From NCBI GenBank assembly GCA_012519615.1, contig JAAYPW010000027.1, forward strand, positions 1 through 37,785: a stretch of DNA of 37,785 bases, written 5' to 3'. Position 1 is the stretch's first letter. The number at the start of each line of letters is the position of its first letter. This stretch comes from Fusobacteriota bacterium. GTDB lineage: Bacteria > Fusobacteriota > Fusobacteriia > Fusobacteriales > JAAYPW01. The notes beneath the pieces are model-generated. The model did no database searches. It had not been told where the DNA came from and saw only the letters and a list, made by a program, of their open reading frames with translations. The position numbers were made by a program, and so were the translations under genes. Shown in pieces: positions 13,453-35,676 of the stretch.

Positions 13453-13539
13453 ATTATTTTGATCGTGATATCTTGTGAAATAAGTACTTTAAATTGGTAT
13501 TAACCTAGTCATTTTACCATCTCCCTCCGAAATTTTTTT

Positions 13540-13690
13540 ACAGGTAAGTCTCCTGACTTAGCTTCATCCTTAGATTTCACCTTCCCAAATTATTATTTAG
13601 TGGTATATCGAAATCCTCGTCAGCAATACAGTAGCGGGGGCTGTGACGGATTCTAACCGTCTTCCTTTTTATTAAATAAATTTAACCTGT
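13540..13690 (-). ncRNA. Cobalamin (AdoCbl) riboswitch
   Basis: Minus strand ACAGGT...GGAAGACGGTTAGAATCCGTCACAGCCCCCGCTACTGTA...GTCAGGAGACTTACCTGT; B12-box core and closing P1 stem. Confidence 0.95.
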
Positions 13691-13692
13691 AT

Positions 13693-14628
13693 CTATTTTA
13701 ATTTTATAAAAACGCCTCTTTCATTTTTTACACTCTCTATTAATTTAAAATTTTCTAGTATGTCTAAATATTTATTAATTTCCAATACATTTATCCCAGT
13801 AATATTTGAGATATCTTCTACTGTACACGGTCTAATAGAAAGCATATTTAATATTGTTTTCTCTTTTAAATCTGAATACGCGCAGACCTCTTTTCTATTT
13901 TTATATTTATCAATTATAACTACATTTTCAATATTCCAATAGTTTTTTATCTCCTGCAATATAGAAATATCTGTTTTTTTCACCCAATTTTCTACAGGTG
14001 GACGGTCTAGTGAGTTTAGCTCTATTTTATCTGGTTTAATTTTTAATAGTACCTCCTTAAAGTAGTCCAACTCCTCTTTACTATTATTTATCCCATCAAT
14101 TATAAATATCTCTAAAAATATCTGTTTTAAATATTTATCTCTTAATAATATTAATCCCTTTATAATTTCATCTATTTTTATATTTTCATAAGGTCTATTA
14201 ATTTTATTAAAAGTTTCTTGAAATACTGCATCAAGAGAAGGAATTATCACATCTACATCTACTATTTCATCGATAATTTTACTATTTGTAAATAATATCC
14301 CATTTGTAATAAGTGCTATTTTTGTATCTGTTATACTTCTAATATATTTAATTATTTCACCAATTTTATTATTTAACATCGGTTCTCCAGAACCTGCAAA
14401 GGTTATATAATCAAGAATACAGTTATTATATTTAAAATAGTGTGTAATTTCTGATTTTATCTCATCTAAATCAATATATTCATCTCTTATTATAGTATAA
14501 TTCGTTGTTTTACCAACTTCACAATATACGCAATCTAAATTACATGTTTTTTTAGTAATTATATCTATCCCAAGAGATATCCCGAGTCTTCTTGATGGAA
14601 CAGGCCCAAAAATGTGTTTATACTCCGT
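13693..14628 (-). CDS. Radical SAM protein (COG0731/wyosine-like Fe-S oxidoreductase); ORF track start at 14379 is too short
   Basis: In-frame upstream translation T-E-Y-K-H-I-F-G-P-V-P-S-R-R-L-G-I-S-L-G-I-D-I-I-T-K-K-T-C-N-L-D-C-V-Y-C-E supplies CxxxCxxC and the PSRRLG motif; no ATG/GTG/TTG between upstream TAA and the motif. Confidence 0.85.
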   Translation of the reverse strand, partial: TEYKHIFGPVPSRRLGISLGIDIITKKTCNLDCVYCEVGKTTNYTIIRDEYIDLDEIKSEITHYFKYNNCILDYITFAGSGEPMLNNKIGEIIKYIRSITDTKIALITNGILFTNSKIIDEIVDVDVIIPSLDAVFQETFNKINRPYENIKIDEIIKGLILLRDKYLKQIFLEIFIIDGINNSKEELDYFKEVLLKIKPDKIELNSLDRPPVENWVKKTDISILQEIKNYWNIENVVIIDKYKNRKEVCAYSDLKEKTILNMLSIRPCTVEDISNITGINVLEINKYLDILENFKLIESVKNERGVFIKLK

Positions 14629-14693: not shown

Positions 14694-14732
14694 TAAAAAA
14701 GTAGGAGCAAACATTTAGTTTACACCTACTTT
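14694..14732 (-). terminator. Intrinsic terminator after lipoprotein gene
   Basis: AAAGTAGG...AAAC-loop-GTTT...CCTACTTT with T-tract on minus strand. Confidence 0.7.
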
Positions 14733-14745
14733 ATATAATTAATTT

Positions 14746-15354
14746 TTATTTATTTGGCGAAAATTTATTTTCTTCTTCTTTAATTTTCTCCTCATCTATT
14801 TGAATTTCGAATTTAAAAATATATTCAATTATTTCATCTGCTACTTCTATAGGTAATAATAATGAAACTACTGCTTGATTTCCTTTTATTAAAGGACTAT
14901 ATCTCCATTCACTATTAATAAATTTTATATTTTTTGCTGGTACTATATTATCTTCTATCCTTCCCCTTCTACTAACTATAGTTGGCACTTGAAAATTATA
15001 ACTGTCTGTTAACTTAACACCAACATGAATAACCCTATTGCTTAAATTATATTCGTCAATAAATATTGCATTATCCCAATGAATTTTCATTGTACTATCT
15101 GTTTTATTATTAAAATCAATCTTGATAACTTTACTATTAGCATAAAGTAGTAAAGTTATTATCTCATCTTCATACAATGCATAATTTTTATTGTCTTTTT
15201 CTAATATTTTTATTTCATAATTATAGTCATCGACACTAGTTGATGTTTCTACAGAAATTAATGTAGTTTTATATATATTTCTCGTACTGGTACCAGTACA
15301 TCCCCCAAATATAAACAAAGATAATATTGTTACAAATAATAATTTTTTCTTCAT
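14746..15354 (-). CDS. Putative lipoprotein of unknown function
   Basis: Signal peptide with lipobox-like IFGGC; RBS AGGAGG. Confidence 0.75.
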   Translation of the reverse strand: MKKKLLFVTILSLFIFGGCTGTSTRNIYKTTLISVETSTSVDDYNYEIKILEKDNKNYALYEDEIITLLLYANSKVIKIDFNNKTDSTMKIHWDNAIFIDEYNLSNRVIHVGVKLTDSYNFQVPTIVSRRGRIEDNIVPAKNIKFINSEWRYSPLIKGNQAVVSLLLPIEVADEIIEYIFKFEIQIDEEKIKEEENKFSPNK

Positions 15355-15569: not shown

Positions 15570-15605
15570 TTAGAGATAAACATATAATATATAATTTTTC
15601 TTCAT
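15570..15605 (-). other. 11-aa micro-ORF with strong RBS, possible decayed 5' end of a gene
   Basis: AAAGGAGGATTTTTAAGA ATG AAG AAA AAT TAT ATA TTA TAT GTT TAT CTC TAA. Confidence 0.4.
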
Positions 15606-15660
15606 TCTTAAAAATCCTCCTTTCTTTTTTATAAATAAATTATAATTGGTAATAATTTAT

Positions 15661-15689
15661 AGTATACTATAAAAAGTGGGGGGGGTCAA
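15661..15689 (-). promoter_or_regulatory. Candidate sigma70 promoter with homopolymeric C tract in its spacer
   Basis: Minus strand TTGACC-[CCCCCCACTTTTTATAG, 17 nt]-TATACT. Confidence 0.6.
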
Positions 15690-15799
15690 GTAATATATGA
15701 AAAAATTTATTTTTATTTGCAGCAAAAATATTAACCTATGAGGAGAGGCTTTTTGTAACCGTATTTATAATACTTACATTGTTTATTGTTTTGATTTCA

Positions 15800-15990
15800 C
15801 CCGCATATCGTAACACAATTACAATTTTCTTAATGAAATCTTCGCTTAAAAAATTGCACCGCTTGAACGCAGTGAGCTTGCAATTTTCAGAAGATGAATT
15901 TAGAAAATTAATTGAGTGTAGATCGAGCGGGCGGCATTTTTTGCTTACTTTTTTTTGCTGCAGAAAAAAAGTAAGAAGATTTAAGTTTTT
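15800..15990. repeat. Structured intergenic element with several inverted repeats
   Basis: AAAATTGCA...TGCAATTTT, flanking ATCTTC/GAAGAT, and CTTACTTTTTTT-TGCTGCAG-AAAAAAAGTAAG; locally GC-enriched. Confidence 0.5.
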
Positions 15991-16122
15991 TATTTTAAAA
16001 AAAAGTAATTAAAAAATAAACTATTCTTTTTATGGTATTTTATTTTATCCAATCTAAATATTTTTTTAAATAGCATTATGAATGACGTAAAACATAATTC
16101 ATATTATATCTATATATAAACA

Positions 16123-16153
16123 TAAAAAGACCTAGTATTTTAAACTAAGTCTT
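16123..16153 (-). terminator. Intrinsic terminator after Spy-like gene
   Basis: Minus strand AAGACTTAGT...ACTAGGTCTTTTT. Confidence 0.7.
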
Positions 16154-16176
16154 CTTTTATTTAATTTAGATTAATT

Positions 16177-16698
16177 TTATTTTATTTTTGGATTTTCTTT
16201 ATTCCATTTTTTATTATTTATATCTCTATTAGGAATATTTTTTTTATTTCGATTAGGTTTATTATGTTTTCTATTAAAATTTTCTTCTATACCATACTTA
16301 TCCTTCATTTGGTATTTGTGTTTTAATAGGTGTACTTCCATCTCTGTTCTTTTATCATTTTTATTTTTTATTGCTTTTTCTACTTTTGTCCAATTAATAT
16401 TATCATCTAATAATAATTTTTTTACTTCGATCTCTCTCTCTTGTAATTCTAATTTTTTTAGTTGACTCTCTTTTATAAATTGTTTTTTATCTTTTTTAAA
16501 TTCCTCTCTTTGTTCTGCAGTTAATTTAGCTAAAGGTCCTTGATTCTCTTTTCGGATTTGTTTATTAGGTGATTTTTTAGATTCTCTCAAAACTTCTTGC
16601 TTTACCGGTTCACTAATTCTCATCACTTTACTATTTTCATTTGCCATTACCCCTAATCCTATTACTGCAAACGCCATTACTAATATCATTTTTTTCAT
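16177..16698 (-). CDS. Secreted basic charged protein, possibly Spy/CpxP (LTxxQ)-like
   Basis: Signal peptide; LAKLTAEQREEFKKDKKQF motif; helical charged region. Confidence 0.55.
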   Translation of the reverse strand: MKKMILVMAFAVIGLGVMANENSKVMRISEPVKQEVLRESKKSPNKQIRKENQGPLAKLTAEQREEFKKDKKQFIKESQLKKLELQEREIEVKKLLLDDNINWTKVEKAIKNKNDKRTEMEVHLLKHKYQMKDKYGIEENFNRKHNKPNRNKKNIPNRDINNKKWNKENPKIK

Positions 16699-18040: not shown

Positions 18041-18084
18041 TTGACTCATGAGTCAATTATAGGACTTTTCTACTAATTTGTCAA
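18041..18084 (-). promoter_or_regulatory. Consensus sigma70 promoter overlapped by a perfect palindromic operator
   Basis: TTGACA-N17-TATAAT followed by TTGACTCATGAGTCAA (16-bp perfect palindrome), upstream of D15-like OMP gene. Confidence 0.8.
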
Positions 18085-18445: not shown

Positions 18446-19788
<1,343 letters not shown>

Positions 19789-19804
19789 TAAATTATATAC
19801 CTAA

Positions 19805-19833
19805 ATTATAACATTTTTTTTCTCATTAATCAA
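19805..19833 (-). promoter_or_regulatory. Predicted sigma70 promoter of leader ORF/kinase
   Basis: TTGATT-N17-TATAAT about 42 nt upstream of the leader ATG. Confidence 0.7.
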
Positions 19834-25651: not shown

Positions 25652-25677
25652 CTATTTATTTTAATAAAATTTAAATA

Positions 25678-25760
25678 GTCTGCTTCCCTTCGTTGGCATT
25701 ATCCAAACAGGTTCGAAGGGTCGGAAATCTCCTCTCAGCTTATTAGCTCCCCTAGCAAGT
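25678..25760 (-). ncRNA. TPP riboswitch
   Basis: Minus strand CTAGGGGAGC...GCTGAGAGG...GACCCTTCGAACCTG...TGGATAATGCCAACGAAGGGA. Confidence 0.97.
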
Positions 25761-25814
25761 ATATTATCACATTGTATTACATAATTGTAAATTGTTACTT
25801 TATGTTTAAATTAG

Positions 25815-33513: not shown

Positions 33514-35676
33514 TTATTTCATAGTAAGTGATACTCTTTTTCTTTTCATATCTACTGATTTTACTTTAACTTTTACAATATCTCCAACAGACATAACTAA
33601 TGTTGGGTCTTTAATAAATTTATCTTTTCCAAATTCTGATATATGTAAAAGTGCGTCTTCATGTAGTCCAATATCAATAAATGCACCAAATTGTATTACA
33701 TTTCTAACAGTTCCCTCTAATTCCATCCCCTCTTTTAGATCTTCCATTTGAAGAATATCATCTTTTAATAAAGGTTGTGGAAAACTGTCACGTGGATCTC
33801 TTCTTTCTTTTAGAAGTGCATTATATATATCAAGGGTTGTTTCCTTCCCGTAATTATTTTTTTCTATAAATTTATTTATATCAATTGTTCTCAATTTTTC
33901 TTTTAATTCTTTTAAATTATTATCAATATCTTCAAGTTTACATTTAATTTCATCTAATATTTTAACAGCAATTTCATATGATTCTGGGTGAATTACTGTA
34001 TTATCCAAAGGATTTTCACTATTAGTTACAACCATAAACCCAGCACATAAAGTATAAACTTTTTCTCCTAATCCTTTTACCTTTTTTAATTCTTCCCTAT
34101 TTTTAAAATTACCATTTTCTTTTCTATAATCAACAATATTTTTTGCAACATTCTTCTTTATCCCAGATACATATCCCAGTAGTGCCCAAGATGCAGTATT
34201 TACATTTACACCAACATTATTTACTACACTTTCAACAATATCCTCTAATGATGTTGTTAATTTCTTTTGATCAACGTCATGTTGATACATTCCCACGCCT
34301 ATTGATTTAGGGTCAATTTTTACTAATTCTGCAAGTGGATCTTGTATTCTTCTTGCTATTGAGATAGCTCCTCTTGCTGTAACATCTAATTCTGGAAACT
34401 CCTCAATGGCTAATTTTGATGCTGAATAAACTGATGCTCCAGCCTCATTTACAATAACGAATGCAGGTTTTTTATTAAATTTTTCTGTTTTAATTATATC
34501 TGCTACAAACTTTTCTGTTTCTCTAGAGCCCGTCCCATTTCCTATTGCAAGTATATCAATTTCGTATTTTTTTATAAAATTTATTATTGTTTTCTTAGCT
34601 AAATCAAATTTAGCGTCTCCATGCATTAAATAAATAATTGTATCTTCAATAAAAAAACCATCTTTATCTATAATAACTACTTTACAACCTGTACGATACC
34701 CCGGATCTAGTCCAATCATATTTTTCCCATAAATAGGAGCTTGTAAAAGTAAGTTTTTTATATTTTTTTTAAATATTTCTATTGCATCGTCTTCCGATCT
34801 CTCTGTAATTAAATTTCTTGTTTCTCTTTCCACTGATGGTAAAATTAATCTATTTAGACTATCTATTATAATATTTGTATACAATTCACAAAGATTTTTA
34901 TTTTTATATTTACTAAGTACATATTTTACTAAATTATCAAAATTTGTCTCATCTAATTTAACTGAAATACTTAATACTTTCTCTTTGTCACCACGATTTA
35001 CTGCTAAAACTCTATGTGATGGGATCTGCTTTACAGCTTCTGAATATTCATAATAATCTTGATAAACTAATTTACTATCTAAATCTCTATTTTTTTCAAT
35101 TAATTTTGAGTATAAAACTCCATATTTTTTATATAGATCTCTAATGTAGTCTTTTATCTCTATATTTTCAGATAGATCCTGTGCAATTATTAATTTAGCA
35201 CCTTCAATTGCATCTTGTATATTTTCAACGTTTTCATTTATATAATCTATTGCAATTTTCTCTAATTCCGCTATAGTAATTTTTTCATTAAGCATAATTT
35301 CTGATAGTGGTAACAACCCATTTTCAATGGCTATATCTGCTTTAGTTTTTTTCTTCTTTTTATATGGTAGATATAAATCTTCTACTCTTTGTAATACTGT
35401 TGCATTTAAAATATCTTTTTTTAATTCTTCTGTAAGTTTTCCTTGTCCCTCTATTGAAGAGATTACTTCTTCCTTTCTTTTTTCTAGATTTCTTAAATAT
35501 TCAATACGTTCATTTATTTGTCTAATTATTTCTTCATCTAAACTTCCTGTGATCTCTTTTCTATATCTTGCAATAAAAGGGACTGTCCCCCCCTCATCAA
35601 GTAATGTAATAGTACTATTCACTTGTTTTTCTGTAATATTTAATTCATTTGCTATTATATTAGATATATTTAACAA
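33514..35676 (-). CDS. tex: Tex family RNA-binding S1 protein
   Basis: GGTVPFIARYRKEITGSLDEE, GLDPGYRTGCK, IGNGTGSRETEKFV, S1 domain GTVRNVIQFGAFIDIGLHEDALLHISE. Confidence 0.97.
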   Translation of the reverse strand: MLNISNIIANELNITEKQVNSTITLLDEGGTVPFIARYRKEITGSLDEEIIRQINERIEYLRNLEKRKEEVISSIEGQGKLTEELKKDILNATVLQRVEDLYLPYKKKKKTKADIAIENGLLPLSEIMLNEKITIAELEKIAIDYINENVENIQDAIEGAKLIIAQDLSENIEIKDYIRDLYKKYGVLYSKLIEKNRDLDSKLVYQDYYEYSEAVKQIPSHRVLAVNRGDKEKVLSISVKLDETNFDNLVKYVLSKYKNKNLCELYTNIIIDSLNRLILPSVERETRNLITERSEDDAIEIFKKNIKNLLLQAPIYGKNMIGLDPGYRTGCKVVIIDKDGFFIEDTIIYLMHGDAKFDLAKKTIINFIKKYEIDILAIGNGTGSRETEKFVADIIKTEKFNKKPAFVIVNEAGASVYSASKLAIEEFPELDVTARGAISIARRIQDPLAELVKIDPKSIGVGMYQHDVDQKKLTTSLEDIVESVVNNVGVNVNTASWALLGYVSGIKKNVAKNIVDYRKENGNFKNREELKKVKGLGEKVYTLCAGFMVVTNSENPLDNTVIHPESYEIAVKILDEIKCKLEDIDNNLKELKEKLRTIDINKFIEKNNYGKETTLDIYNALLKERRDPRDSFPQPLLKDDILQMEDLKEGMELEGTVRNVIQFGAFIDIGLHEDALLHISEFGKDKFIKDPTLVMSVGDIVKVKVKSVDMKRKRVSLTMK

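Follow-up and report, generated by a model that had tools for sequence, protein, structure and literature searches.

In Neisseria meningitidis, the porA promoter carries a poly-G tract in the spacer between its −35 and −10 elements, where a change of one base shifts the spacing (PMC3899988), and the promoter of the surface protein gene opc contains a poly-C tract, C11–C12, for which a change in expression has been tested (PMC3447861). The fim2, fim3 and fimX promoters of Bordetella pertussis hold a C-stretch, down to C7/C8 in fimX, and genomes with contingency loci have long G/C tracts above expectation, in B. pertussis above 8 nt (PMC1891110). A different arrangement is described for pil1 and pil3 of Streptococcus gallolyticus, in which GCAGA repeats lie in a leader and stops in or near a hairpin switch the genes on (PMC3894217).

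The window analysed here, the whole stretch of 37,785 nt, is one contig of a 1.80-Mb genome assembled in 158 contigs; of the 98 phylum genomes searched, no other belongs to its family. Direct reading of the minus strand from 15689 to 15661 gives TTGACC-CCCCCCACTTTTTATAG-TATACT with a spacer of 17 nt, and a run of eight C residues provides the final two bases of the −35 element and the initial six of the spacer, so that a homopolymer lies between or across the −35 and −10 elements as in the porA/opc-type promoters. The sequence-only reading had placed this motif and its 17-nt spacer at the same coordinates, with C8 across the −35/spacer junction, and on these points it was correct. The site and its surroundings comprise the following features:

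15661–15689, minus strand: sigma70-like promoter candidate, TTGACC-17-TATACT
15689–15684, minus strand: −35 element TTGACC
15666–15661, minus strand: −10 element TATACT
15678–15685: C8 tract of the minus strand (G8 on the plus strand); the 1.80-Mb genome has two runs of this length, this being one
15656–15673: perfect palindrome of 18 bp, TTTATAGTATACTATAAA, which covers the −10 element and is not enriched in the genome
15616–15622, minus strand: Shine-Dalgarno sequence AAGGAGG of the 11-aa ORF, by direct reading
15570–15605, minus strand: 11-aa ORF, MKKNYILYVYL
14746–15354, minus strand: gene for a putative lipoprotein of 202 aa, an orphan
14698–14732, minus strand: terminator-like hairpin with a T run, 3′ of the lipoprotein gene (z −4.3)
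16124–16156, minus strand: terminator-like hairpin with a T run, after the upstream gene 16177–16698 (z −4.6)
15697–15741, plus strand: 14-aa ORF MKKFIFICSKNINL, possibly a vestigial start site; the G8 tract lies 11 nt before it
15721–16000, plus strand: incomplete copies of a multi-copy intergenic repeat; they set in 32 nt upstream of the −35 element

We favour, at a probability of roughly 0.48, the reading in which the site is an ordinary sigma70-type promoter of a one-gene lipoprotein unit, with the C8 run belonging only incidentally to its −35 element and spacer and not acting as a switch. Transcription by RNA polymerase would begin near 15654 on the minus strand and yield a leader of approximately 300 nt, with the 11-aa ORF ahead of the lipoprotein gene; the length of the tract would be effectively fixed. 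The lipoprotein gene is monocistronic with strong hairpins on either side and, because these hairpins bound it, a promoter is needed in the interval unless there is read-through. Across the 750 nt searched from the terminator of the upstream gene to the lipoprotein gene, the C8 site is the top sigma70-like match (10/12), and no other minus-strand site between the upstream hairpin (16156–16124) and the lipoprotein start reaches that score. The strong Shine-Dalgarno sequence of the 11-aa ORF lies some 30–40 nt beyond the predicted transcription start. Together, the best match in the interval, this Shine-Dalgarno sequence and the bounding hairpins make a promoter directed toward the lipoprotein gene plausible.

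A promoter directed toward the 11-aa ORF and the lipoprotein gene had been proposed from the sequence; both ORFs and the orientation are indeed present and the site is the best match in its interval, but when that interval is dinucleotide-shuffled, 44% of the shuffles contain a match scoring 10/12 or better. Promoter-like sites in the region number 38, against 42.8 ± 7.0 in shuffles, and so are not in excess. When the tract was held fixed and both 100-nt flanks were shuffled, a promoter scoring 10/12 with five or more tract bases in its spacer arose in 1.9% of cases, a rate that is only suggestive, the criterion having been picked post hoc. In favour of the promoter reading, bona fide-looking promoters of this form occur elsewhere in the window, with 12/12 matches to TTGACA-17-TATAAT at 18084–18056 and 19760–19732. 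The former adjoins a 16-bp palindrome, TTGACTCATGAGTCAA, the two together spanning 18041–18084 on the minus strand upstream of the gene 17976–16819, and this palindrome is a likely operator. Palindromes as long as the 18-bp one over the −10 element of the C8 site appear in 3.4% of shuffled intervals; we considered it as a regulon operator and rejected it, since it matches 15 places in the genome at up to two mismatches, compared with 22 for a control. The folding stability of the leader (15655–15340) is not unusual (z −0.23).

The product of the lipoprotein ORF (15354–14746; MKKKLLFVTILSLFIFGGC) matched no Pfam or NCBIfam model; no relatives were found among the 98 genomes of the phylum other than in its own genome, and none in the genome contig collection. 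Nor were relatives of the neighbouring TonB receptor found in the same collection. The start region of the 11-aa ORF shares 71% identity over 55 nt with the lipoprotein start, and we considered whether this ORF is a remnant of a lipoprotein duplication. The start of the gene at 16698 resembles the lipoprotein start equally (45 nt, 71%); shared start-site composition therefore suffices, no duplication is needed, and the idea was rejected. Further copies of the repeat upstream of the −35 element lie at other loci (L002, L003, L004, L006, L007, L010 and L014), several of them at contig ends, and the repeat is probably one reason for the split of the assembly into 158 contigs. The window also contains a cobalamin riboswitch (13526–13705, minus strand) before a BtuB-like TonB receptor gene, and a TPP riboswitch (25668–25763, minus strand) upstream of a thiamine gene region that includes thiC. 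A search of the plasmid collection gave only weak matches, to Cetobacterium at 73%, around the cobalamin riboswitch; on the basis of these matches and of composition, the order is taken to be Fusobacteriales-like.

Against the promoter reading, the tract can also be read on the plus strand as a Shine-Dalgarno-like element, the orientation in which most non-coding G runs of this genome lie. The G8 run would then serve, or once have served, the plus-strand ATG at 15697, which opens a signal-peptide-like MKKFIFIC... peptide, of a gene cut at codon 8–9 by the repeat near 15721, and the apparent −35 element TTGACC would be the mere complement of GGTCAA. The plus strand reads GGGGGGGGTCAAGTAATATATGAAAAAATTTATTTTTATTTGC ahead of MKKFIFIC, with G8 before an ATG (GGGGGGGGTCAAGTAATATATGAAAAAATTT), and homology to the repeat begins just after the ATG-AAA-AAA segment. 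The genome's 44 G runs of 6 nt or longer were classified as 25 coding sense, 1 coding antisense and 18 non-coding; in 14 of the 17 other non-coding runs the next gene lies downstream on the G strand, mostly 3–54 nt away, a placement that Shine-Dalgarno-like elements would be expected to show. A search of the 98 phylum genomes for TTGACCCCCC-N(8–16)-TATA returned six matches in five genomes, two of the six being the C8 site itself counted at two spacings, as against five in five for a control read backwards. The other four, in relatives, are in every case the reverse complement of a GGGGGG(G)TCAAAATG that stands where a gene begins. In the Shine-Dalgarno-like G runs of this genome and order, however, GGGGGG(G)TCAA is followed by an ATG and the start of a gene, whereas here the ATG stands 11 nt from the run (4–5 nt in the clearest cases) and opens an ORF of which a mere 14 codons remain; moreover, the plus-strand promoter is weak and the surrounding known genes all lie on the minus strand. 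A vestigial plus-strand start site is a serious rival, albeit one that we regard as unlikely. The G-rich start-site elements of this order imitate a −35 element plus poly-C on the opposite strand, which makes them a trap for scans. Non-coding G7 runs at four further loci (L052, L053, L058 and L063) follow an A run and lead immediately into a short palindrome or hairpin, 19–43 nt before the next gene.

The ordinary promoter also has to be weighed against the switch that the sequence-only reading had proposed, in which slippage in C8 alters the −35/−10 spacing and hence lipoprotein expression. The spacer has the optimal length and the tract sits precisely in it, a putative surface lipoprotein would be the target, and porA, opc and the Bordetella fim genes are precedents (PMC3899988, PMC3447861, PMC1891110); the C7/C8 promoter tract of B. 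pertussis fimX, in particular, differed among strains (PMC1891110). The genome as a whole speaks against such a switch. The number of its G/C runs drops from 44 at 6 nt or more to 16 at 7 or more, 2 at 8 or more and 0 at 9 or more, and the long-tract excess that accompanies promoters of the porA/opc type is absent. Two runs of 8 are expected from 16 runs of at least 7 at an extension probability of 0.12–0.2, and C8 is thus an ordinary endpoint of a run-length distribution that falls steeply. A run of eight lies at the lower edge of the tract lengths that are usually unstable. MutS is present and intact (933.6 bits, well over the cut-off), and the promoter–tract architecture occurs at chance level in the phylum. 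Nor would single slips be expected to act as a switch: C7 and C9 would give spacers of 16 and 18 nt and, because sigma70 promoters can use spacers of 16, 17 and 18 nt alike, gain or loss of one C would be expected to tune expression rather than turn it on or off. With no tract of 9 nt or more, no tract excess, MutS in place, a chance-level architecture and a motif that can be taken just as readily for a plus-strand Shine-Dalgarno element, the phase-variable promoter finds no support, and we consider it improbable.

No close relatives were found in which the tract could be compared, a DNA search of 40 relatives giving only short AT-rich matches, and the literature searched describes no homopolymer-spacer promoters in this Fusobacteriota-like order. 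G9 matches are numerous in other members of the phylum, so the missing tail of long runs is a feature of this genome. Three genomes of one genus (G028, with up to 80, G096 and G012) each contain dozens of overlapping G9 matches and are candidates for genuine contingency loci of the homopolymer type; G027 has dozens as well, but most of the matches listed for it fall within a single G run of approximately 40 nt. Within the window, a G7 run at 35587–35593 was considered as a coding contingency tract and rejected, as it sits within LLDEGGTVPFIARYRKE, which we take to be a Tex-like motif.

That the arrangement is a product of chance, with no promoter and no start site in decayed intergenic sequence, would fit the shuffle rates, the repeat fragments that adjoin the site and the truncated ORFs that flank it on both sides, but the lipoprotein gene requires a promoter, for which the C8 site is the best candidate, and we hold this view to be highly improbable.

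A much stronger candidate for phase variation in the window than the C8 run is a pentanucleotide array in a leader 4 kb away, identified in a tandem repeat search. Its parts, all on the minus strand, are:

19833–19805: TTGATT-17-TATAAT site, some 40 nt before the start of the leader ORF
19763: ATG start codon of the leader ORF, with AGGTGAT upstream; the encoded peptide has 13 residues followed by (SRAEQ)n
19725–19626: perfect (GAGCA)20 array inside the leader ORF, the only stretch of the genome with at least three GAGCA units
19595–19573: terminator-like hairpin CCGCAGTAGCTACTTTACTGCGG-GTTTTTG after the array (fold z −1.98), followed by AAGGAGGTGAT
19519–18446: PAS-HisKA-HATPase kinase gene

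With the 20 repeats of the assembly, the leader stop lies 27 nt short of the hairpin; 18 or 21 repeats would place it 14 nt short, and with 19 or 22 the leader would cross the hairpin and end 16 nt inside the kinase ORF. The stretch 19519–19833 has the pil1-type layout: a leader ORF with a ribosome-binding site, repeats, a stop that depends on their number, and a hairpin before the gene. If the pil1 model applies, the assembled 20-repeat state would be OFF for the kinase. A complication is the 12/12 promoter match at 19760–19732, which lies within the leader ORF, such that transcription could begin at the array. Were the C8 run additionally a slow rheostat of a family-restricted surface lipoprotein, the window would contain two phase-variable loci independent of each other, a combination that we think very doubtful.

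Set beside the described systems, the C8 site shares with porA a homopolymeric G/C run between the −35 and −10 elements but differs from it in that the run is only 8 nt and other long tracts are missing from the genome. A poly-C promoter run is common to opc and the C8 site, at C11–C12 in the former and C8 here. The fim promoters likewise have poly-C but also a 'fim box', and none was identified at this site. In AT-rich DNA, a short C run within a promoter-like string is common enough by chance and is distinct from real evidence for a contingency locus. The (GAGCA)20 leader resembles pil1/pil3 more fully: GCAGA is GAGCA rotated, and the order is the same, from a leader ORF with a ribosome-binding site through a hairpin terminator to the gene (PMC3894217). 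It differs in preceding a predicted PAS histidine kinase, not pili, and in belonging to a different phylum; it would carry a streptococcal pilus mechanism over to a sensor kinase in another phylum.
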